Positions 7,879 through 34,267 of a DNA stretch of 34,810 bases are shown here, piece by piece. Under the pieces are notes generated by a model. That model did not search any database and was not told the DNA's origin. It was given only the letters and a program-made list of their open reading frames with translations. Origin of the DNA: Desulfobacula sp. (GTDB lineage Bacteria; Desulfobacterota; Desulfobacteria; Desulfobacterales; Desulfobacteraceae); contig NZ_JAUWQB010000033.1 in NCBI RefSeq assembly GCF_030611305.1, positions 1 through 34,810 on the forward strand, written 5' to 3'. A program made the translations under genes and the position numbers. Within the stretch, counting starts at the first letter, position 1, and each line of letters opens with the position of its first letter.

Positions 7879-10488
7879 TTAGCCTTTGTAAATTTTAACA
7901 GCAACAGAAGTTTCAATGTTTCCGGTGATGGGGTCATAGTGTCTCAAGTATGATGGAAGCAGCTTGCAGAAATTACTTCCCTTACCCTTGGCAATAGGTC
8001 TGCCATCAGCCCATAAACCACCTTGTCCGCAAACTCCAAGAACTTTTGGATGTTGAGCTTCCATTGTTTTTACAATACCGTTTTCCTTGGTTCCATATTT
8101 ATTTTCCATCCAGATAATATCGCCATCTTTGAATCCTTTTTCATCTGCCAGGCCTTTATTTAACGTAATTGTAAAAGTATAAGGACTCATCTGGCTGACT
8201 TCATCAATTAAAGGATTCTGGAATGTTGAGTTATTTGTGTGGAGAACATCACGATAAGAAAAAGCTAAAAGATCATACTCATCATCAAGTTCTTTGTGGG
8301 ATGTAGGCCAGAACCAGTTAGGTAACGGACCATATTGATCCATTTCCATTTCAAGTTCAAATCCGGTATCTTTCATGATTTTTTCAGCAGCTCTTCTGTC
8401 ATGAATTAAAAATTCCATATAAACCGGGCATCTTGTAGGCATATTCCATCTCCAATAGACATCTTCAATGGGTTTATGCCATGTTGCAAATCCCTGTTCC
8501 TGAATTTTTTCTTTATCATCCCCATAAACCCATGTCAGGACTCTTTCGCCAATTTCCTTCCAGGTCAGGACTTCGCCGGGTTTAAGTTGAAGCTTTTCAT
8601 CTGTAATACTGTAATAATTATTAAGGAGTTCATGATATTTGTCAAGAACACCAACACGGTTTGCAACATCCAGATAAACGTTCATGAAGTCTCGTGATTC
8701 ACCAATGGGTTTTGCAACAGGTTGTTGCAAATGAACATACCAGTCTTCATAGGATGGACTTCCATTGAAGAAAAAACTGTCAATTTCAGAAGACCAGGTA
8801 TCTTTTTCAAGATAAGAGGTATCAGGAAGGATTATATCACCTATGGCCTGGTCAGTTTCATTGACCCATATATCACTTAGTACAACAAAACAATCTTTAA
8901 AATTGTCCAGGGCAACGTCCCAGTCAGAATTACTTATAAGAAAATTCACTGCGATTCCAAAAATCATTTCAGGCTGGACTTTTTCAACACCAAATTTTTC
9001 CTGAATATAATCTTTTTCTTTAACATAGGGTATATGAGAAAGAGTGGAATGTGACCAGAATTCAACACATCCTGAATTGGTACATGGATAGCTTGGTGGA
9101 TGAACAGGCCATGGATCATGTGAATAAAATACTGAAGGAACAATAACGCCGTCTTTACCTACTTTAGGCATACGTTCGTATTGACCGCCAGGGTATTTGC
9201 GCCTGATAGATGGCCAACCCATTGTACCGCCAGGCACATCTTCAGCACCAACAAGCTGACTGATGAGATCTATTGAAGCAACCTGATGTATACCATTTGA
9301 ATGTCCCTGGGCACCACGGAAGGTTACAGATGATACTGGCCGGTAGGGAAATGTTTGTCCTTCTATTGTAATGGTGGATCCGATCTGGGCATTATCCACC
9401 CAGCCCTTTGCAACTTCAAGAATGGTTCCCACAGGAACGGTACTTATGTTGGATGCCCATTCCGGGGTGAATTGTTTTAAATGTTCTTTTAATGCCATAA
9501 AGCAGGGTCGGCATTTTTCGCCCTTATATTCATAGTCACCTTCAAGGGAAAAATCTTCAAACGCTATGGATTCATCATCAAATACTTTTATCTTTTTTGC
9601 TTTTTCATCAAACACAAGAGGCTTGTCAGTTTTTTCATCCCGAATAAAAGTTCCGTCTTCCCGTATCAGATAAACAAAGTTTGTTTTTGCTCTAAGATAA
9701 AGTTCGTCGATTTCTCCTCTGGTATTGAGGATATAGTTGGCTATGGCAAGTCCAACTGCAGTGTCAGTACCAGGTAAGATGGCAACCCATTGTGTAGCCT
9801 TACCACCTGCAAAGTTACCCATTGGATCAAAAACTATCTCTTTTATTCCGCGTCTTACACTATCGGCCCTCAGTCTTGCATTGATCAAGGCTGAATGTCC
9901 GGAACCGGTTCCTTTACTGGAACCCCATTTAAGAACATACTTTGTGTATCGCCAGTCCGGTGCTATTGACCATGCACCATGAATTAATCCACCCAGCATA
10001 TGAGCAGCATTACCGCAGTGCAGACTGCCGCCGCCAATGATAAAGTTACCATTGTTTGGTATGCCGAACGCCTTTGCATAGAAATAAAGATGATTATGAG
10101 GGCCATCACTTGCACGCATGGTCTGGTTTGTGAAGAGAATTTTATTTGGATTATCCTCCATAATCTTTTTCATTCTTGTGGATATCTCTTCAAGGGCCTC
10201 GTCCCATTCAATTTCTTTCCATTTAGGGTCAACACCAAAGCCTTTCTCAGAATTGGTTCGTCTCAATTGTTTTTTAATCCGATTGGGATCATGGTAGTAC
10301 ATCAGTCCTGCAATTCCCTTACCGCAAAGACCTGCTCCTGTCCCCCCCATGGTACTTTCTTTAATACCTTCAACTTTTACCGGCACACCGTTCACCACCC
10401 TAACTCTACAGGCACAGCCGCAGTAACACACGCCACAGGTGGTATTTACCCATTTGTCTTCCCAAATTTCATCTGTTTTATAGGTCAT
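7879..10488 (-). CDS. Molybdopterin oxidoreductase catalytic subunit (candidate PadB)
   Basis: Catalytic subunit of the DMSO-reductase superfamily, 869 residues. The N-terminal [4Fe-4S] site is C18-x2-C21-x3-C25 with C55 in LCGKG; two extra cysteines, C23 and C27, interleave. A cysteine in GGGSLHCGNAAHM (C158) is the likely Mo or W ligand. The C-terminal molydop-binding domain includes MSPYTFTITLNKGLADEKGF. There is no twin-arginine signal, which points to a cytoplasmic enzyme acting on a CoA ester or similar. The size agrees with the roughly 93-kDa subunit of phenylacetyl-CoA:acceptor oxidoreductase, and linkage to a four-subunit 2-oxoacid oxidoreductase supports phenylacetyl-CoA to phenylglyoxylate oxidation. 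Alternatives are other cytoplasmic molybdo- or tungsto-oxidoreductases of unknown substrate. Family is near certain, substrate moderate. Confidence 0.85.
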   Translation of the reverse strand: MTYKTDEIWEDKWVNTTCGVCYCGCACRVRVVNGVPVKVEGIKESTMGGTGAGLCGKGIAGLMYYHDPNRIKKQLRRTNSEKGFGVDPKWKEIEWDEALEEISTRMKKIMEDNPNKILFTNQTMRASDGPHNHLYFYAKAFGIPNNGNFIIGGGSLHCGNAAHMLGGLIHGAWSIAPDWRYTKYVLKWGSSKGTGSGHSALINARLRADSVRRGIKEIVFDPMGNFAGGKATQWVAILPGTDTAVGLAIANYILNTRGEIDELYLRAKTNFVYLIREDGTFIRDEKTDKPLVFDEKAKKIKVFDDESIAFEDFSLEGDYEYKGEKCRPCFMALKEHLKQFTPEWASNISTVPVGTILEVAKGWVDNAQIGSTITIEGQTFPYRPVSSVTFRGAQGHSNGIHQVASIDLISQLVGAEDVPGGTMGWPSIRRKYPGGQYERMPKVGKDGVIVPSVFYSHDPWPVHPPSYPCTNSGCVEFWSHSTLSHIPYVKEKDYIQEKFGVEKVQPEMIFGIAVNFLISNSDWDVALDNFKDCFVVLSDIWVNETDQAIGDIILPDTSYLEKDTWSSEIDSFFFNGSPSYEDWYVHLQQPVAKPIGESRDFMNVYLDVANRVGVLDKYHELLNNYYSITDEKLQLKPGEVLTWKEIGERVLTWVYGDDKEKIQEQGFATWHKPIEDVYWRWNMPTRCPVYMEFLIHDRRAAEKIMKDTGFELEMEMDQYGPLPNWFWPTSHKELDDEYDLLAFSYRDVLHTNNSTFQNPLIDEVSQMSPYTFTITLNKGLADEKGFKDGDIIWMENKYGTKENGIVKTMEAQHPKVLGVCGQGGLWADGRPIAKGKGSNFCKLLPSYLRHYDPITGNIETSVAVKIYKG

Positions 10489-23672: not shown

Positions 23673-24743
23673 ATGAAACAAGAAAAATGTACTGAATTTT
23701 GGATGCATAGGCCCAGAACAGGGTATTTCCCCCAAACACTTATTATTTTAGTGGTGCTGCTCATTGCATTGTCCATGATGGTATCTCCCGTTTTTGCCGG
23801 GAAGTCATACAAATGGAAAATCAGCCAGGGAATTGCTGAAGATCATCCAGCCTCTGCACGGTGTAAACAATTTGCCAAACTTGTAGAAGAAAAATCCCAG
23901 GGAAATATTAAGCTCGACTATTTCCCGGCAGGCGTCCTGGGGGACTGGTCAGAACAGATTGAAGCCAACCGTATGGGAACCCTGGAAATCGGACTCAATG
24001 CTGGCTCTACATCTTATGACCCTAAGACCAATCTCATGTTCATGCCCTATCTTTTTTCCTCCTGGGATGAAGCACGGGCTGCCATCGGATCAAAAGGATG
24101 GCTTACCCCCATATTTAACGAACTCTACTCAGGCATCGGCCTCAAGGTGCTGGGTATTTATTTAAATGCGTGGGATGGCATGGCCTATACCAGTCGGGTG
24201 AAAAAATTGGTCAAAGTACCTGCCGATTCCAAGGGAATTAAGATGCGGGTTCCCCCCATCAGGATATTTGAAGTCTATATCCCTACCCTTGGTTTTATCT
24301 CCACACCAGTGGCCTATTCGGAAACATTTACCGCCCTACAGACCGGCATAGTGGATGCCAGGTCTGCCTGCCCTGCGGTTGAAGCCTATGTCATGAGGGA
24401 TGCCATAGATACCTATGTGCTCACCAAGGATGCTTTTGAATACTGGTTTTTGACCATGAATAAAAAACTATGGGACAGTCTTTCCGCGGAAGACCAGGCC
24501 ATTCTCACCGCCAGTGCAGACACGGTCATGGCAGACCAAGCCATCGCAGCAGAGCAGGATGAAAAGGATTTTATGAATAAGCTTACGGCAGCCGGAATCA
24601 AAGTTTATGAAGTCAGTGACCAAGAATGGAATATATCAGCTAAAGTCGTCAGGAACAAGGCATGGCCAATTATTGAAAAAGAACTTTTGGGAACCGAACT
24701 TATGAATAAAATCAAACAGTACGCAACTATCATTCCCCAATAG
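23673..24743 (+). CDS. dctP: TRAP transporter substrate-binding protein DctP
   Basis: Periplasmic solute receptor of the DctP family, 356 residues. A long N-region (about 20 residues) precedes the hydrophobic signal stretch LIILVVLLIALSMMV, with cleavage expected after VFA near residue 42. Mature features are ISQGIAEDHPASARCKQFA, GIKMRVPPIRIFEVYI with the arginine that normally binds the ligand carboxylate, and FTALQTGIVDARSACP. Ligands of this family are organic acids. AAAAGGAG precedes the ATG. A shorter start at in-frame ATG 23703 is possible. A strong hairpin separates it from dctQ. Confidence 0.92.
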   Translation: MKQEKCTEFWMHRPRTGYFPQTLIILVVLLIALSMMVSPVFAGKSYKWKISQGIAEDHPASARCKQFAKLVEEKSQGNIKLDYFPAGVLGDWSEQIEANRMGTLEIGLNAGSTSYDPKTNLMFMPYLFSSWDEARAAIGSKGWLTPIFNELYSGIGLKVLGIYLNAWDGMAYTSRVKKLVKVPADSKGIKMRVPPIRIFEVYIPTLGFISTPVAYSETFTALQTGIVDARSACPAVEAYVMRDAIDTYVLTKDAFEYWFLTMNKKLWDSLSAEDQAILTASADTVMADQAIAAEQDEKDFMNKLTAAGIKVYEVSDQEWNISAKVVRNKAWPIIEKELLGTELMNKIKQYATIIPQ

Positions 24744-24753
24744 GAAAATTCTT

Positions 24754-24780
24754 GTCCGGAAAGGAATAACCTTTCCGGAC
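24754..24780 (+). terminator. Strong intercistronic hairpin between dctP and dctQ
   Basis: GTCCGGAAAGG (24754-24764) pairs perfectly with CCTTTCCGGAC (24770-24780) around AATAA. There is no T run, so it is more likely an RNA-stabilising 3' stem than a full terminator. It would favour excess receptor over membrane subunits. Confidence 0.7.
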
Positions 24781-24799
24781 CCGACCAAAGGGAGAAAAA

Positions 24800-25321
24800 A
24801 TGTTCATGAAAACCGTTCGAAAAACATTTACTGCAATCGACAATGTGTTGACCAATGGCTTTTCACTGTTCATTGTTCTGGGCGGTGCCCTTATGACCCT
24901 GACGGTGGTTCTTCAGGTGTTGTTACGTTATGTTTTTAAACAACCCCTTTTCGGTCTTGAAGAGTTTTCCCGTCTAGTGGCTATATGGCTTTATTTCCTG
25001 GGTGCTGTTTTAAGTACCAAAACCGATAACCATGTCCAGGGAGATGTGGCAAATAAATATATCACAGGGGAAAAGGCAAGAATTGTTCTTAGAACCTTTG
25101 TCTGGATACTATGTCTTGTGACCTGTATTTTATTTCTCTATCATTCCGGGACCTATTCCTGGTGGATTTATGGCACTGGTGAGCGGACCACAGGTCTATG
25201 GTGGCCAAGGGTCATCAGCGTTGGCAGCATGTTTTTCGGTGCATTTTTTATGACGCTCTACTGTTTGACTAACGTGATCAAATATTTGACAACCGCCTTA
25301 AATTATAAAAAAGACCATTAA
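24800..25321 (+). CDS. dctQ: TRAP transporter small membrane subunit DctQ
   Basis: Small four-helix membrane subunit, 173 residues. Hydrophobic segments at about 17-40, 53-70, 95-116 and 137-160 fit DctQ. LFGLEEFSRLVAIWLYFLGA is the family's hallmark middle region and GERTTGLWWPRV precedes the last helix. It joins DctM to form the transporter driven by an ion gradient. GGGAG lies before the ATG. It ends 11 bases before dctM. Confidence 0.9.
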   Translation: MFMKTVRKTFTAIDNVLTNGFSLFIVLGGALMTLTVVLQVLLRYVFKQPLFGLEEFSRLVAIWLYFLGAVLSTKTDNHVQGDVANKYITGEKARIVLRTFVWILCLVTCILFLYHSGTYSWWIYGTGERTTGLWWPRVISVGSMFFGAFFMTLYCLTNVIKYLTTALNYKKDH

Positions 25322-25332
25322 AGGAGCGCTCC

Positions 25333-26634
25333 ATGGTAATTGTATTTTCTATATTAATGGTGGTTATATTGATGATGTTGATAGGCGTACCCGTGGGTTT
25401 CGCCTTTGGTCTTGGAGGGTTTGCCATCCTGTTTTTTACCGGGATTGATCCAAGATTTGCCATGCCTGCCGCCTTTAGGTCCATTGAATCATATACCCTC
25501 ATGGCCCTGCCTTTGTTTATCCTGGCAGGAGGTCTGATAAGCGAATCCGGTATTTCCCAGCGCCTGTTGAATTTTACCATGTCCATTGTGGGCAGAACAA
25601 AAGGTGGGCTGGGTGTGGTTTGTGTGGTTACATGCACGATTTTTGGTGCCATTTCAGGCAGTGCATCAGGTGCCATTGCCGCTATCGGATCCATTATGAT
25701 TCCGGAAATGACAAAACAGGGATATCCAAGAGGTTATGCAACAGGTCTTGTGGCCACCTCCTCCATGCTGGCCCTGCTGATTCCCCCCAGTATCCCCATG
25801 ATTGCATTTGCCATGACCGCACAAATTTCGATTCTGTCAGCTTTTTTAAGCACTTTGATTCCAGGGATTTTGATGATGATAAGTTATAGCCTGATCAATA
25901 TCTTCATGAGCCGGCGCATGGAAAATCTGACACTGGTCCCCAGGCAATCCTCAAAAGAAAGATTTAAAGAAATCGGACGTACTACAAAGCAGGCCACATT
26001 TGCGCTGTTAATGCCAGTCCTTGTCCTGGGCGGTATTTATGGAGGAATTTTTACCCCCACGGAAGCGGCTGCCATGTCTGCCATCTATGCTGTTCTGGTT
26101 GGACTGGTCATATACAGAGCAATGACGTTTAAAAAATTATTCTCCACCATGAAAAAGGCAATGATTACATCCGGTGCTATTATGATCCTTCTATTTTTTA
26201 TTTTAATGGTTTCCAGAATCATGGTAACTCTTCAGGTACCCCAGCACCTGACCGAAGCTATGTTCAGTATCACCACCAATAAATTGGGGGTCCTTTTGAT
26301 GCTCAACGTCATTTTATTGCTCATGGGCATGCTGGTGGATGATGTGTCCGGTAACATCCTTTCAGCCGCTATTCTCTTGCCGGTTGCACAGTCCGTTGGT
26401 ATAGACCCAATTCACTTTGCTGCTATATCTGTTACCAATCTTTCCCTTGGCAATGTCACACCACCTTGTGCCCCCATGCTTTATCTTGCCGGAATGGTTG
26501 GTGGCAACCTGCCCCTGAACGAATATGTAAAACCCGCCGGAGTTTTCATGATATTCGGCGCATTGCCAGTAATACTTATGGTGACCTATGTACCTGAATT
26601 TGCACTAATTTTAGTTGACCTATTTTTAAGATAA
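25333..26634 (+). CDS. dctM: TRAP transporter large membrane subunit DctM
   Basis: Large permease subunit, 433 residues with about a dozen hydrophobic segments, the usual size. Family stretches include GVPVGFAFGLGGFAILFF, LPLFILAGGLISESGIS, TIFGAISGSASGAIAAIGS and GGIYGGIFTPTEAAAMSAIYA. It catalyses uptake of the solute released by DctP, coupled to sodium or protons. AAAGGAG precedes the ATG. It is followed after 22 bases by the crotonase gene, tying uptake to CoA metabolism. Confidence 0.95.
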   Translation: MVIVFSILMVVILMMLIGVPVGFAFGLGGFAILFFTGIDPRFAMPAAFRSIESYTLMALPLFILAGGLISESGISQRLLNFTMSIVGRTKGGLGVVCVVTCTIFGAISGSASGAIAAIGSIMIPEMTKQGYPRGYATGLVATSSMLALLIPPSIPMIAFAMTAQISILSAFLSTLIPGILMMISYSLINIFMSRRMENLTLVPRQSSKERFKEIGRTTKQATFALLMPVLVLGGIYGGIFTPTEAAAMSAIYAVLVGLVIYRAMTFKKLFSTMKKAMITSGAIMILLFFILMVSRIMVTLQVPQHLTEAMFSITTNKLGVLLMLNVILLLMGMLVDDVSGNILSAAILLPVAQSVGIDPIHFAAISVTNLSLGNVTPPCAPMLYLAGMVGGNLPLNEYVKPAGVFMIFGALPVILMVTYVPEFALILVDLFLR

Positions 26635-26656
26635 CTTGAACTTTTTGGAGATAACC

Positions 26657-27421
26657 ATGAAAAATGAAACCGTATTGTACCATTGCAACAAAAATGTGGG
26701 AATTATTACCCTTAACCGTCCCCACCGCCTCAATGCCATTAATCTTGATTTGCTCAAACGGTTCATGGAAAAACTTGACATGGCCAAAAAGGATACAAAA
26801 GCCCTTGTGATTATCCTGACCGGAGAGGGAAAAGCCTTTTGTGCAGGTGAGGATCTAAAAGAGACAGCATCCGGCAAAAGCATTGAGCAATGGATGGATG
26901 AGGCAGAAAGACTCCAGGAAATCCAGTATATGACCATGAAACTTGGTAAACCCATTATTGCGGCAATACCCGGATATGCTCTGGGCGGCGGATGCGAGTT
27001 TGCCATGGGATGTGACATCCGGATTGCTTCTAAAACTGCTGTGTTAGGATTTCCAGAAACCACTGTGGGCATGACCGTTACCAATGCCGGTACGAAAATA
27101 TTACCCCATCTTGTGGGGTTGGGCAAAGCCAAAGAACTGGTATTAACCGGCGACTTTATTGATGCATCTGAAGCACAAAGGATCGGTCTTGTTAATAAAG
27201 TGATTGCGCCTGAAAATCTTATGGCAGAGTCAATGACCATGGCCGAAAAAATTGCAAGTCGTTCACCTCTTGCCACAAGACTGTCACGAACTGCTCTTGA
27301 CCATGGAATGGAGGCCAGTTTTGATCAAATCATGGAACTTGAAAAAAGTCATTTGATCATCTGCGGTCAAAGCGGAACAGAATTTGTGAAAAAACGACTC
27401 AAAGAAATGGGTAAAAAATAA
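26657..27421 (+). CDS. Enoyl-CoA hydratase/isomerase (crotonase) family protein
   Basis: Crotonase-fold enzyme, 254 residues from ATG 26657, which has TTGGAG upstream; an earlier in-frame TTG at 26636 is unlikely. The oxyanion-hole loops are FCAGEDLKE and GYALGGGCEF. Both catalytic glutamates of true hydratases are present: E114 in GGGCE and E134 in GFPE, exactly 20 residues apart as in rat mitochondrial crotonase. So it should be able to hydrate an enoyl-CoA. Beside a methylcrotonyl-CoA-type carboxylase it may act like methylglutaconyl-CoA hydratase on the carboxylated product (inference). It lies between the TRAP and CoA-ligase genes on the same strand. Confidence 0.9.
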   Translation: MKNETVLYHCNKNVGIITLNRPHRLNAINLDLLKRFMEKLDMAKKDTKALVIILTGEGKAFCAGEDLKETASGKSIEQWMDEAERLQEIQYMTMKLGKPIIAAIPGYALGGGCEFAMGCDIRIASKTAVLGFPETTVGMTVTNAGTKILPHLVGLGKAKELVLTGDFIDASEAQRIGLVNKVIAPENLMAESMTMAEKIASRSPLATRLSRTALDHGMEASFDQIMELEKSHLIICGQSGTEFVKKRLKEMGKK

Positions 27422-29709: not shown

Positions 29710-31188
29710 ATGTCAGAAGTCACTAAAGTATTGATTGCCAATCGCGGAGAGATCGCCTGTAGAATTTTGCGCACGCTGGATCGCATGGCCATTCCAGGTG
29801 TTGTTGTCTATCACTCGGTGGACGCCGACTCCCCAGCGGTTAAAACGGCCGCCGAGTCCGTGGAAATCGATGGCCCCACACCAGTGGCAGCCTATTTGAA
29901 TGTGGAGAGTATTATCGCTGCCTGCAAGGAGACCGGCTCCGATGCGGTTCATCCTGGGTTCGGGTTTTTGGCTGAAAATCCAGGGTTTGCTCAACGCCTG
30001 GCAGAGGAGGGAATCACTTTTATCGGGCCACAGCCTTCGACCATCGAGCTGATGGGCAACAAGGTGGCTGCCCGTTCTTTCTGTATGGACAATTGTTTTT
30101 CCCTGGTGTCATCTGTAACCGAGGCGGATGCAGGAGAGGATTTTGCTGAATGTGCCCGAAAAATCGGTGTGCCGATTTTGATCAAGGCGGCGGTCGGTGG
30201 TGGTGGTAAGGGGATGCACATCGTGCGGGAACTGGATGGCCTAGACCAAGCCATCCAGTTGGCCAAGGGTGAAGCGCTGCGTTCTTTCGGAAACAATGAG
30301 GTATACGCCGAGCGATATGTGGAAGAACCGCGTCATATAGAGGTGCAGGTGATGGCCGATCACCACGGCAATGTGGTGCACCTGGGGGAGCGGGAGTGTT
30401 CCATTCAACGTCGCTTCCAGAAGATCATCGAAGAAAGCCCTGCGCCTAATCTGACTCTGGAACTGCGCCAACGTATCTGCAATACAGCAGTGGAGATCGC
30501 CAGGAAAGCGAACTATCTCAATGCAGGAACGGTGGAATTTATACTTGCGCCTGACGGAAAGTTCTACTTTTTGGAGATGAACACCCGGTTACAGGTGGAG
30601 CATCCGGTTACTGAAATGGTGACAGGTTTGGATCTGGTGGAATTACAGCTTCGCGTGGCCCGAGATGAATATCTGCCGTTGTCCCAGGATGAAATCAAGG
30701 CGAAAGGACATGCTATCGAACTTCGTCTATATGCCGAGGACCCGGAAAACGATTTTCTGCCGGCCACGGGGACGCTCCTGGCCTACCGTCTGCCAGCGGG
30801 CAAAGGGGTTAGAATTGAGAACGGATTTGCCGAGGGCATGCAGGTCTCTTCCGCCTTTGACCCCATGCTTGCCAAGCTGATTGTCCACGGCAGGGATCGG
30901 AATCAAGCCATTGAAAGGGCTTTGAAGGCTTTGGACGATACGCTGATACTTGGGGTGACCACCAACATCGACTACCTGGCCCGGATTCTCTCCCATCCAG
31001 CCTATACATCCGGCCAGATACACACCGGTTTTATTCCCAAGTATGGCGAGGATTTGAGCCCGCCGCCTCTGAGCGAAGAACAACGCAACCTACTTTTAGC
31101 TGCTGCGGCTTTGAACAGTCGAGAATTCACCGACCCGGCTTTCCAGGTGCCGGAACCCTATGCATCCCTTGGCGATTGGAGGAACTGA
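29710..31188 (+). CDS. Biotin carboxylase subunit of acyl-CoA carboxylase
   Basis: ATP-grasp biotin carboxylase, 492 residues, which carboxylates biotin using bicarbonate and ATP. It begins VLIANRGEIACRILRT, then GFGFLAENPGFAQRL, the glycine-rich AAVGGGGKGMHIV and the active-site EMNTRLQVEHPVTEM. Compared with methylcrotonyl- or geranyl-CoA carboxylase alpha chains, which continue into a transfer domain and biotin carrier, this one stops at SLGDWRN, a conserved WRxN position of the fused proteins. The rest is encoded in the next gene, so the chain is split. Codon use is clearly GC-richer than upstream (37 of 60 bases G or C at 30361-30420, against 26 of 60 at 26701-26760). Confidence 0.93.
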   Translation: MSEVTKVLIANRGEIACRILRTLDRMAIPGVVVYHSVDADSPAVKTAAESVEIDGPTPVAAYLNVESIIAACKETGSDAVHPGFGFLAENPGFAQRLAEEGITFIGPQPSTIELMGNKVAARSFCMDNCFSLVSSVTEADAGEDFAECARKIGVPILIKAAVGGGGKGMHIVRELDGLDQAIQLAKGEALRSFGNNEVYAERYVEEPRHIEVQVMADHHGNVVHLGERECSIQRRFQKIIEESPAPNLTLELRQRICNTAVEIARKANYLNAGTVEFILAPDGKFYFLEMNTRLQVEHPVTEMVTGLDLVELQLRVARDEYLPLSQDEIKAKGHAIELRLYAEDPENDFLPATGTLLAYRLPAGKGVRIENGFAEGMQVSSAFDPMLAKLIVHGRDRNQAIERALKALDDTLILGVTTNIDYLARILSHPAYTSGQIHTGFIPKYGEDLSPPPLSEEQRNLLLAAAALNSREFTDPAFQVPEPYASLGDWRN

Positions 31189-31192
31189 TATG
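31178..31192 (+). promoter_or_regulatory. Ribosome site formed by the WRxN codons at the alpha-chain split
   Basis: GGAGG (31178-31182) lies in the TGG-AGG codons for the Trp-Arg pair, 7 bases before ATG 31190. The TGA of the carboxylase (31186-31188) is between them, giving tight termination-reinitiation coupling. The carrier frame is shifted by one base relative to the carboxylase. Confidence 0.7.
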
Positions 31193-31693
31193 CAACGCCG
31201 GATTAATTTGCTTGACGTACATTACACCGTAATGGTTGTCGGTCATCCAGAAGAGCGCTGGTTGAAGGTGGAAGCCGGGGAGTTCCAGTCGGTTGCATTG
31301 AAGTCTATGAAGGATGGACAAGGTATCATCCTATTGGGTGAGCAAAACGTTCGGATGAAGATGGCGGTTAAGGGGGAGACGGTGTATATCCGCGCTTTTG
31401 ACCGGACCTTCACCCTGCACATCGTGAATCCTGTGGAGCAGGCGGCCCAGGAGACCAGCGGGCCTGGCAACACCGCCCGGGCACCCATGCCCGGCACAGT
31501 GGTGGAGATCGATGTGGCTGTGGGTGCCCGGGTCACCAAAGGCCAGTCCATGATGACCATCGAGAGTATGAAAATTCTGACGGTGATTACAGCCCCCAGG
31601 GACGGTGAGGTGGTCCAGGTACATTTTGAGCCTGGGGCTACATTTGGTAAGAATGCAGCGCTGATAACCCTGTCGAAAAAGGAGGAAGAATAA
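31190..31693 (+). CDS. Biotin carboxyl carrier subunit of acyl-CoA carboxylase
   Basis: Carrier protein of 167 residues. The C-terminal biotinyl domain (about 95-165) has RAPMPGTVVEIDVAVGARV and the biotin attachment site ESMKI with K128; the usual AMKM is replaced by SMKI. The N-terminal 90 residues (including HYTVMVVGHPEERWLKVE) look like the linker/transfer region that follows the biotin carboxylase in fused alpha chains. Thus this gene supplies the second half of a methylcrotonyl-CoA-carboxylase-type alpha subunit. The start was chosen at ATG 31190, behind GGAGG; the frame is open earlier (31160) but overlaps the upstream gene. It ends 1 base before the next gene. Confidence 0.9.
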   Translation: MQRRINLLDVHYTVMVVGHPEERWLKVEAGEFQSVALKSMKDGQGIILLGEQNVRMKMAVKGETVYIRAFDRTFTLHIVNPVEQAAQETSGPGNTARAPMPGTVVEIDVAVGARVTKGQSMMTIESMKILTVITAPRDGEVVQVHFEPGATFGKNAALITLSKKEEE

Positions 31694-31694
31694 C

Positions 31695-33302
31695 GTGCGT
31701 CGCATAAAATCCAACGTCGATACCCAGTCCGTCGAATTCCGCGCATATCAGCGTCACAACCATAAAATCATGACGCAATTTCATGAACACCAGCGTAAGG
31801 CCCGTTTCGATCGTCCGGAACGGGACGTGGAAAGGCTGAGAAAGCAGAAGAAATTACTGGTACGGGAACGTATTGATCTTTTGCTCGATCCCAGCACGCC
31901 GTTTATGGAACTCTCCACCCTGGCGGCCAACCTGGCCTATGAGGGCACTGTTCCTTCAGCCGGCGTGGTGTCCGGTGTTGGCATCGTCAGTGGCCGTGAG
32001 GTGATGATAATGGCCAGTGACAGCTCCATCAAGGGAGGCGCGTGGTACCCACTTACCGTGAAGAAAATGGTCCGTACTCTGGACATTGCCATTGAAAACC
32101 GTCTGCCCATGGTCCATCTGGTGGATGCGGCCGGTGCATATCTACCCCTGCAGTCGGGACTCTTCCCGGACAGGCACATGGCCGGCCGCATGTTTCGAAA
32201 CCAGTGCGTCCTCAGTGCTCTGGGGGTAGAACAGGTGGCTTTGGTGTTAGGCCATAGCACCGCCGGTGGTGCTTATATCCCTACCCTGAGCGACTACTCG
32301 GTGATGGTGCGGGGTACCGGCGGTGTGTTTTTGGGGGGTCCACCCTTGGTAAAGGCCGCCACCGGTGAAGAGGTGACTGCCAATGAACTGGGAGGCGCGG
32401 ATGTGCACAGCTCCATAAGCGGTACCGCAGATTACGCAGTGGATTCTGAGCAGGAAGGCCTGGCACTTGTGCGCGAGATCGTCGGCACTTTTCCCCGGGG
32501 AACCAAGGTGGCGGTGGAGCGGCGTGAACCCGAAGAACCCTACTACGACCCGAAAGAACTTTACGGCATTATCCCCGACGATGTTAAGAAGCAGTTCGAT
32601 ATGCGGGAGGTGGTTGCCCGCATTGTCGATGGCAGCCGGTTCCATGAGTTCAAACCGGACTATGGCACCACTGTGGTGTGTGGGTTCGCCTTCTTGTATG
32701 GCTGGAAGGTGGGGATAATAGGCAACAACGGAGTGCTGTTTTCCGACAGTGCTCAGAAATGCACTCAGTTTATGCAGATCTGCAATCGTGATCTCGTGCC
32801 GGTTATCTTTTTTCAGAACATTACCGGATTCATGATAGGCAAGGCCTATGAACATGACGGCATTACAAAGGACGGTGCCAAAATGCTAATGGTGCAGAGC
32901 AACCTGGATGTTCCAAAACTTACGATCATGGCCAACGGTAGTTTCGGTGCCGGCAACTACGCCATGTGTGGACGTGCTTTTGATGCTCGCTTTCTGTTCT
33001 CCTGGCCCAACTCGCAGATTTCGGTAATGGGGATGGAGCAGGCAGTAAAGACTTTGACCCAGATCCGTCTCAAGGCTCTACAGCGTCAGGGTAAGGTCTT
33101 ACCCAAAGAAGAAGTGCATAAGATCTACGACGACATTTCCCAGGATTATCTGGAAAAAAGTGGTGCATATTACTCCACTTCGGAACTCTGGGACGATGGT
33201 ATTATAGATCCTTCAGATACCCGTAAGGTGTTGGGCATCTCCCTATCGGTGGCACTGAACTGTGAATTCAACAAAACGCCCAATGGGGTGTTAAGGATAT
33301 GA
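31695..33302 (+). CDS. Acyl-CoA carboxylase carboxyltransferase (methylcrotonyl/geranyl-CoA type)
   Basis: Carboxyltransferase beta subunit, 535 residues, starting with GTG one base after the carrier stop and behind AAGGAGGA. It moves CO2 from carboxybiotin to an acyl-CoA. Features pointing to the methylcrotonyl/geranyl-CoA group rather than the propionyl group are DAAGAYLPLQSGLFPDR, HSTAGGAYIPTLSDYSVMV and QNITGFMIGKAYEHDGITKD. The substrate is therefore probably a beta-methyl enoyl-CoA; 3-methylcrotonyl-CoA would be classic, but neighbours do not include an acyl-CoA dehydrogenase or HMG-CoA lyase. It is the last gene of the island and of the GC-rich segment. Confidence 0.92.
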   Translation: MRRIKSNVDTQSVEFRAYQRHNHKIMTQFHEHQRKARFDRPERDVERLRKQKKLLVRERIDLLLDPSTPFMELSTLAANLAYEGTVPSAGVVSGVGIVSGREVMIMASDSSIKGGAWYPLTVKKMVRTLDIAIENRLPMVHLVDAAGAYLPLQSGLFPDRHMAGRMFRNQCVLSALGVEQVALVLGHSTAGGAYIPTLSDYSVMVRGTGGVFLGGPPLVKAATGEEVTANELGGADVHSSISGTADYAVDSEQEGLALVREIVGTFPRGTKVAVERREPEEPYYDPKELYGIIPDDVKKQFDMREVVARIVDGSRFHEFKPDYGTTVVCGFAFLYGWKVGIIGNNGVLFSDSAQKCTQFMQICNRDLVPVIFFQNITGFMIGKAYEHDGITKDGAKMLMVQSNLDVPKLTIMANGSFGAGNYAMCGRAFDARFLFSWPNSQISVMGMEQAVKTLTQIRLKALQRQGKVLPKEEVHKIYDDISQDYLEKSGAYYSTSELWDDGIIDPSDTRKVLGISLSVALNCEFNKTPNGVLRI

Positions 33303-33649: not shown

Positions 33650-34267
33650 TTATTTGCCATACCTTCCCCAGAGATATAGTAACGAATCAAGATGATATGG
33701 TGTTATTCCGATGCTGCCTGCAATTTCTTGTGACAAAATAAAGCTCTTTTTAAAGCTCATTTTACGACAGTCATCATTAAGACCTAATAATTGTGGAAAT
33801 TCTTTTCGGAAGTGATGATCGACTTTTACATACCTGGTAAAACCAATCTCTTTTAGAAAATCGCAAAATAGAGCTGGACCGACTTGAGAAATGTTTTTTG
33901 AGGAATCATTTACATATTTCCACATATCTTTAGGAAGTGTGACTTTTTCAATGCGAGCATAAAACTTTTCCAATCCAGTTTTTAACTCGTCCTGCATTTT
34001 TGCAGAGCCTGTTATTAAAACGGAAATAATTCGGGGCTTAAATTGTTTTGATGACAAATCAAATTGAAATTTGTTTTGAATTTGTTGAGCTAACAAGCCC
34101 AATTTTTGAGGCTGCCAATTTTGATAGTCTAAAAAATTTGGTTCTCCAAATGCACGGTGAAGTGCTTCATCAATATTTTGGGTGGACGGCAATTCTTTAA
34201 TAAGTGGTGTTAAGAAATTATTCCGTAAAGGAGCATAGCTAAAACTACTCACACAAAAATGTTTCAT
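33650..34267 (-). CDS. Unknown protein, possibly HhH-GPD DNA glycosylase-like
   Basis: A 205-residue protein not confidently recognised. The stretch ISQVGPALFCDFLKEIGFTR followed by VKVDHHFRKEF and a late HLDSLLYLWGRYG recalls the helix-hairpin-helix plus catalytic-aspartate layout of HhH-GPD base-excision glycosylases (G-x-G-x-x-x-A, then KxD). A lysine (YVKVD) and aspartate fall near expected positions. No Fe-S cysteines are seen. The start overlaps the stop of the 58-residue gene upstream by one base (TAATG), so the two are coexpressed. A defence or repair role is a guess from this similarity. Confidence 0.55.
   Translation of the reverse strand: MKHFCVSSFSYAPLRNNFLTPLIKELPSTQNIDEALHRAFGEPNFLDYQNWQPQKLGLLAQQIQNKFQFDLSSKQFKPRIISVLITGSAKMQDELKTGLEKFYARIEKVTLPKDMWKYVNDSSKNISQVGPALFCDFLKEIGFTRYVKVDHHFRKEFPQLLGLNDDCRKMSFKKSFILSQEIAGSIGITPYHLDSLLYLWGRYGK

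Follow-up and report, generated by a model that had tools for sequence, protein, structure and literature searches.

Why should an acyl-CoA carboxylase of the methylcrotonyl-CoA carboxylase (MCC) or geranyl-CoA carboxylase (GCC) class be encoded by two genes that meet at a conserved Trp-Arg-Asn motif, when the alpha chain of the known enzymes is a single protein? The question is raised by a locus of Desulfobacula sp., in a 34,810-nt stretch of contig NZ_JAUWQB010000033.1 (hereafter the window), where genes for a biotin carboxylase (BC), a biotin carrier and a carboxyltransferase (CT) follow one another.

29710..31188, + strand: BC subunit, 492 aa (PF00289, PF02786, PF02785)
31177..31185, + strand: codons TGG AGG AAC of the hook Trp-Arg-Asn, holding GGAGG (31178-31182), the likely Shine-Dalgarno sequence of the carrier
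31186..31188, + strand: BC stop codon TGA, 1 nt (T, 31189) before the carrier ATG
31190..31693, + strand: biotin carrier subunit, 167 aa, in the +1 frame relative to BC, ATG at 31190 (PF00364)
31695..33302, + strand: CT subunit, 535 aa, GTG start 1 nt past the carrier stop (PF01039)

We consider it very probable that this locus encodes a conserved three-subunit acyl-CoA carboxylase of the MCC/GCC class, with separate BC, BT-biotin carrier and CT chains, in which the hook codons serve as the ribosome site of the carrier. To the further proposal that the BT domain is split over two proteins across an ancient clade and assembled non-covalently, the last three BC codons being doubly selected as a CT-docking hook Trp peptide and as a Shine-Dalgarno sequence for the other half, we give slightly less than even weight. 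Separate BC, carrier and single CT genes lie in what their spacing suggests is one operon. The BC, BT and biotinyl domains, with the biotin Lys, are present and collinear with the alpha chain of MCC (LiuB/LiuD) and GCC (AtuC/AtuF), and the CT class and the hook Trp are the same; unlike in these enzymes, the alpha chain is not fused but corresponds to two proteins in the window.

The break within the BT domain

The BT domain of GCC has been described as a long helix inside an eight-stranded barrel, with a "hook" between the helix and the first strand; a Trp in the last hook segment, Trp543 of PaMCC in human numbering, is reported to be buried in the CT subunit (PMC4673880). When counted in an alignment to the PDB sequences, the Trp of the WRxN motif corresponded to position 543 of human MCC alpha. 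By sequence alignment, the terminal BC Trp is thus the hook Trp that has been described in both GCC and MCC, and the break falls 2-3 residues past it.

Predicted structures placed the two products on either side of this point. The BC model (pLDDT 90.1), with a predicted helix at 456-468 that is presumably the BT helix, aligned to PaMCC (3u9t_A) from residue 1 at position 46 to residue 492 at position 543 (Z 55.9, 471 residues aligned), its last residue falling at MCC alpha 545 by sequence. The carrier model (pLDDT 88.7, pTM 0.54) aligned to human MCC (8j78_C) from residue 1 at 551 to residue 164 at 717 (Z 13.6, 154 aligned). It consists of an eight-stranded BT-type barrel (2-79), with the number of strands reported for the GCC barrel (PMC4673880), a linker helix (81-89) and a biotinyl domain (about 94-162) with an ESMK biotin site; the MCC chains compared have AMKM instead. 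We infer from these models that the BT domain is divided, with helix and hook on the BC and the eight-stranded barrel on the carrier. Several points weigh against this division. Residues 471-492 of the BC model are poorly defined (pLDDT 46-67), the root-mean-square deviation (rmsd) of the structural alignment is high for both BC (6.8) and carrier (11.8), and Foldseek gave the carrier TM-scores of about 0.4-0.56; the high rmsd of the carrier is taken as two domains shifting apart, and the pairing of the BC helix with the carrier barrel is argued by homology.

Because the BC reaches MCC alpha 543-545 and the carrier resumes at 551, the junction lacks about five to seven residues. The earlier note had proposed that little sequence was lost. 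This stood in so far as the two products tile on MCC and propionyl-CoA carboxylase (PCC) alpha chains with this small gap, but the hook part before the motif is also shorter by 6-7 residues (48 in the window versus 54-55 in MCC-type chains). Counted from the motif to the biotinyl domain, the joined window protein has 97 residues; 8 of 18 fused chains (L064, L073, L076, L079, L086, L087, L092, L103) have 96-98, and the remaining ten have 77-131.

The hook codons and the carrier start

The window BC ends in SLGDWRN followed by TGA, and the carrier is a separate gene in the +1 frame. The earlier note's account of this junction was confirmed base for base, including the GGAGG built from TGG-AGG, which lies 7 nt before the carrier ATG, and the single base between TGA and ATG. 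A longer in-frame carrier start at 31160 (177 aa) is open as well. Starts were sought downstream from a point about 30 nt ahead of the BC stop codon; since the first usable start in L044, L051, L127 and L133 was an ATG 1 nt past the BC stop, 31190 is the likely carrier start.

The choice of the terminal Arg codon was then compared with the codon usage of each BC gene. Once four duplicates with equal codon counts and two junctions without Arg (Gln in L063, Ser in L069) were removed from 33 rows, AGG or AGA was found in 24 of 27 distinct loci versus 3.2 expected, and AGG in 17 versus 2.0. Outside the window's Desulfobacterales clade the count was 11 of 14 versus 0.9 expected. Six GC-rich BC genes (L052, L053, L054, L055, L057, L066) have AGG or AGA at the junction and none among their other 33-50 Arg codons. 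Plasmid loci found later, which are outside this count, have AGA (L170, L171, L174), CGG (L172, L173) or AGG (L184). L063, L070 and L173 have neither AGG nor AGA at the junction, yet carry GGAGG a few bases upstream, from Gly-x-Trp codons. Upstream of the carrier start, the mean anti-Shine-Dalgarno energy was -8.3 kcal/mol versus -4.7 for synonymous recodings (Fisher P 2e-8 over the 30 of 32 rows scored, L171 and L172 being unscored; 7e-7 for the 18 loci outside the window's clade). Given the excess of AGG/AGA over expectation, the embedded ribosome site looks to be under selection, and the idea that the conserved WRxN/WRN motif at the split doubles as a ribosome site is supported by both motif and codons across loci.

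Other results speak against this selection. The strength of the ribosome site is not significant for the window alone (p 0.11), so that it is the loci taken together that give the support; only 7 of the 30 fell below 0.05 singly, and the loci are related, not independent. Five of the 30 (L062, L065, L069, L170, L174) had no clear excess (p 0.40-0.69). The background codon usage of L058 is unreliable, its BC being broken over two frames. The control on fused chains has too little power to carry weight: AGG/AGA occurred at 0 of 18 sites with 0.35 expected, and some of the sites are non-homologous.

The carrier start lies between -1 and +4 nt from the BC stop in 30 of 32 homologous junctions; the other two, L171 and L172, are annotated with a 4-nt overlap and with a carrier start 84 nt after the BC stop, respectively. 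Of the 30 loci with a near start, 18 have the carrier in the +1 frame relative to the BC, 11 have it in the other shifted frame and one has it in frame with the BC. With TGA and ATG just 1 nt apart in the window, a +1 shift would join the two frames, and the GGAGG upstream could stimulate it, so that programmed frameshifting might yield some long BC-carrier chain. There is, however, no single conserved shift, and it is the start codons at the junction that are conserved instead. The frame relation varying between loci, we rejected frameshifting as very improbable. The closeness of start and stop in three different frame relations thus fits coupling by re-initiation, as judged from the compared sequences. 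A ribosome ending the BC would restart, or a new one would bind, at the carrier ATG, and the coupled start would provide matched amounts of BC and carrier.

The next junction of the window has a similar feature. At 31680-31697 the last carrier codons, AAG GAG GAA GAA TAA, are followed by C and the GTG of the CT gene, and AGGAGG within them lies 9 nt before the CT start, a similar embedded ribosome site.

Spread and age of the split arrangement

The window junction was also found in two other genomes of the family, L044 TGGAGGAATTGATATG and L045 TGGAGGAACTAGTATG, whose BCs are 69 and 74% identical to that of the window. L044 keeps the whole operon, from open reading frames (ORFs) of the size of the TRAP transporter genes through crotonase, CoA ligase, TIGR03084 protein and BC to carrier and CT. 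Beyond the window's clade, split BC, carrier and CT genes occurred in the same order, with 49-57% BC identity, in Actinomycetota (L052, L057), Chloroflexota (L063), Myxococcota (L055), Pseudomonadota (L053, L054, L056, L058, L060-L062, L065, L066, L069, L070) and one further Desulfobacterales genome (L059), the phyla with split loci being five with Thermodesulfobacteriota. BC and carrier are split in all 33 junctions compared (four of them duplicates), and the BC ends in WRN in 28, WRP in two and WQN, WSN and WRNE in one each. All 18 BCs compared have Gly488 and Trp490, and the ESMK biotin site is likewise invariant in 18 of 18 carriers.

A scan of genome contigs with an alignment of three carriers gave at least 505 confirmed matches, the best 80 of which were kept. 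In a second scan, of 389 genomes of the order, 21 matched at 1e-15; each of the 12 matches above 100 bits falls in an open frame of 118-206 aa, and long frames (667-1121 aa) contain all but one of the 11 weaker ones. The same three genes are carried by five plasmid regions (L170-L174). The BC query matched 94 plasmid records at 1e-120, a figure that counts records irrespective of whether the chain is split, and in the plasmid annotations the genes are mostly named by domain or loosely, as acetyl/propionyl- or methylcrotonoyl-CoA carboxylase, which leaves the clade there with no assigned function.

That decay or an assembly error broke a fused gene has next to no credibility. The window does come from an assembly of 159 contigs, and the carrier of L045 is itself interrupted, but the identical junction recurs in independent genomes with intact ORFs, conserved residues and biased codons, and the homologues refute this explanation. 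The earlier note was therefore right that the junction is not decay, its homologues keeping it, and its suggested check of relatives showed the split to be shared, with the same junction in independent genomes and like junctions in other phyla. As a refutation of its view it had named close homologues whose carboxylase stands alone beside a different carrier, and this is half borne out: the close homologues do stand alone, but with a carrier of the same kind. In L045 (positions 8168-8657, genome G005) the carrier gene is broken by a frame change, with BC and CT intact, through assembly error or decay.

In two trees, the split BCs formed one clade (SH-aLRT 99 in both; 32 rows in the first, 20 in the second). 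The first tree was built without labelled PCC chains and omitted 22 named BC rows (duplicates, partial, broken and a few others) and eight rows of pyruvate carboxylase type; here the split clade was sister to 49 fused rows plus L115. In the second, made from 60 hand-picked rows with PCC chains from plasmids added, it was sister to 19 fused rows of MCC type and from actinobacteria (94), the two being joined at 88, and fused PCC and fused Desulfobacterales chains fell outside this group. A second group of split BCs, from Desulfobacterales (L148, L161-L163, L026), was outside the split and fused rows in the first tree (fork 96) and a separate clade in the second (100). These BCs end in LGNW plus two residues (NWRL, NWNL, NWRQ, NWKL) and so have the same break point, with no GGAGG in the Trp and following codons and an AMKM biotin site; at four of the loci the carrier is predicted to begin 7-48 nt past the stop. 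We had also considered proteins of 650-750 aa in relatives as fused BC-carriers, but among 26 loci (L018-L043) a BC was found in L026 only, and they were not used as comparators; they are presumably CT-carrier proteins.

Judging from these comparisons, the split is an old arrangement rather than a recent break, because relatives from several bacterial phyla share it. The gene fission in this lineage proposed by the earlier note did not survive, the split being common to a clade over five phyla and the second group of separate BCs ending two residues past the same Trp. An older event is harder to dismiss: a fused MCC-type alpha chain could have undergone one fission at the base of the clade, through a frame change at WRxN that then persisted. 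The position of the split clade next to fused rows, with fused PCC and Desulfobacterales chains outside, is compatible with such a fission, and fused actinobacterial chains hold WRN internally (L079, L082, L084, L091, L113, L116). Every row found in the clade is nevertheless split, which leaves no event in the window's own lineage; the second group breaks at the same place outside split and fused rows in the first tree; and a constraint to one fused clade was not rejected (p-AU 0.35). In the published scheme, as given in PMC3199775, three separate subunits are ancestral and the fusion of BC and biotin carboxyl carrier protein is derived. We thus regard one old fission as rather doubtful. On the sequences sampled, one fission or two fusions fit the second tree equally, and since the addition of PCC chains changed the tree we claim no direction of fusion or fission, although we lean towards the split state as ancestral.

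Carboxyltransferase class, operon and possible substrate

PCC beta (1vrg_A, 4e-79) was a much poorer match to the window CT than human MCC beta (1e-166), PaMCC beta (1e-164) or GCC beta (1e-133). The best match of this CT, 9tps_A (3e-172), is labelled PCC beta; the same sequence occurs in 9tqc, which is titled 3-methylcrotonyl-CoA carboxylase. By sequence similarity, the window CT is of the MCC/GCC class.

These matches bear on another explanation, namely that the locus encodes an ordinary acetyl-CoA carboxylase of AccB/AccC type whose BC serves fatty acid synthesis, the GGAGG being a coincidence of tight packing. This is the sole biotin carboxylase found in its genome, two weak matches (22-24% identity, contig C99) not being full BCs, and tight gene pairs commonly encode subunits of complexes, according to PMC10666635. 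We consider this explanation improbable, as the BC scored below the cut-offs of the AccC models (PRK08591, 545 vs 597 bits; TIGR00514, 528 vs 626.5 bits), the CT is a single 535-aa MCC-class chain instead of AccA plus AccD, the AccC-type BCs met in relatives and plasmids stop around residue 450-480 with no WRN, and the bias in codons at the junction goes beyond the general usage of each gene. The window genome (97.4% complete) has one full biotin carboxylase versus five CT-family genes, that of the window included, and four more small biotin/lipoyl carriers (frames of 74-76 aa).

As to the substrate, GCC has Gly162 at the position of Phe191 of MCC, where a Phe has been reported to collide with the geranyl moiety (PMC4673880). 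Phe191 of human MCC beta, counted in the alignment, corresponds to Ala163 of the window CT, a small residue as in GCC. All 35 distinct CTs of the split clade have a small residue at this position, Ala in 28 and Gly in 7, and the three scored from the second split group have Gly; a further 24 CT rows, most of them next to fused BCs, have Phe. L063 went unscored because its CT is too short, and the assignment is less certain for L052, L057, L058 and L184 owing to a three-residue gap. The Ala where MCC has Phe191 suggests a bulky branched substrate. Against its use as a marker of the split itself, Gly also occurs in 17 CTs near fused BCs. Fused actinobacterial loci such as L082, L084 and L116 have a CT with this GCC-like Gly and a three-residue gap at the substrate-size position.

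The genes upstream of the BC form, with it, a putative operon.

23673..26634, + strand: TRAP transporter genes
23673-24743, + strand: TRAP solute-binding protein DctP
24800-25321, + strand: TRAP middle gene, labelled DctQ by position
25333-26634, + strand: TRAP large permease DctM
26657..27421, + strand: crotonase-family enoyl-CoA hydratase, putative operon member, same order in L044 and L050
27463..28794, + strand: PaaK-like CoA ligase, putative operon member, same order in L044 and L050
28838..29644, + strand: TIGR03084 / MDMPI_N (DinB-like) protein, directly upstream of the BC (297 bits, cut-off 248)

The window operon thus offers uptake, activation by the PaaK-like ligase and a crotonase. 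The crotonase gene could also begin with a TTG at 26636; it was searched as 26660-27421. The TIGR03084 gene is also upstream of the BC in L044, L045, L047, L050 and L051. Separately, it occurs within fused actinobacterial carboxylase loci (L082, L113, L116, L117, L119, L121, L125, L126). After the CT gene, a minus-strand ORF (33650-34267, 205 aa) had no Pfam match at 1e-8. An AtuA gene lies beside L052, L066, L170 and L174, and genes for an acyl-CoA dehydrogenase and an HMG-CoA lyase-like protein (HMGL) lie beside L063. Of the five plasmid regions, however, just two (L170, L174) have an annotated AtuA, and we recognised none in the window operon, for which reasons the substrate is a guess. Elsewhere in the window genome, a lone AtuA gene (L186, contig C120 of G000) lies by genes for a beta-keto acid cleavage enzyme, a 3-hydroxyisobutyrate dehydrogenase-like protein and a TRAP-type transporter. 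In L170, a Roseovarius indicus plasmid, a longer BC with a Phe-type CT stands a few genes from the split carboxylase and AtuA, and its annotated length fits a fused chain; L174 is alike.

Taking CT, pocket and operon together, the enzyme may be a branched 2-enoyl-CoA carboxylase with a roomy pocket. The BC chain would supply the BT helix and the hook, whose Trp would dock on the CT, and the carrier would supply the BT barrel; the two BT halves would associate non-covalently and hold the biotinyl domain where it can move back and forth between BC and CT. The substrate is probably a branched 2-enoyl-CoA with more bulk than methylcrotonyl-CoA; the TRAP transporter would take up its precursor, and the PaaK-like ligase would activate it.

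Separate BC, carrier and CT subunits and coupled gene pairs are already known kinds. The archaeal acetyl/propionyl-CoA carboxylase is of the three-subunit type; the window set resembles it in general plan and differs in belonging to a bacterial, MCC/GCC-like clade. Three-subunit acyl-CoA carboxylases with separate BC, carrier and one CT also figure in PMC3199775. Among the open-access papers listed in literature searches, we recognised no described split MCC or GCC. The nearest mention was GeneTack cluster 697472870, "Biotin carboxylase", which in Table 2 of PMC3711429 comprises 128 frame-transition genes (+1) from 44 genera, with the start within 10 nt of the stop in 75%, and is classed there as translational coupling; this cluster may be the same family as the split clade. 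What seems undescribed is an MCC/GCC-like clade with the break inside the BT domain and a ribosome site in the hook codons.

The locus indicates that the boundary between BC and carrier in a major enzyme class can fall inside the BT domain, which would make the order of fusion and fission in MCC, GCC and PCC directly testable. It also offers a clear case of a conserved C-terminal peptide doubling as the likely ribosome site of the partner gene. If the split is ancestral, fused MCC alpha chains would have arisen by loss of stop and start codons. In sulfate reducers and proteobacteria, the clade may act on branched or terpenoid acyl-CoA.

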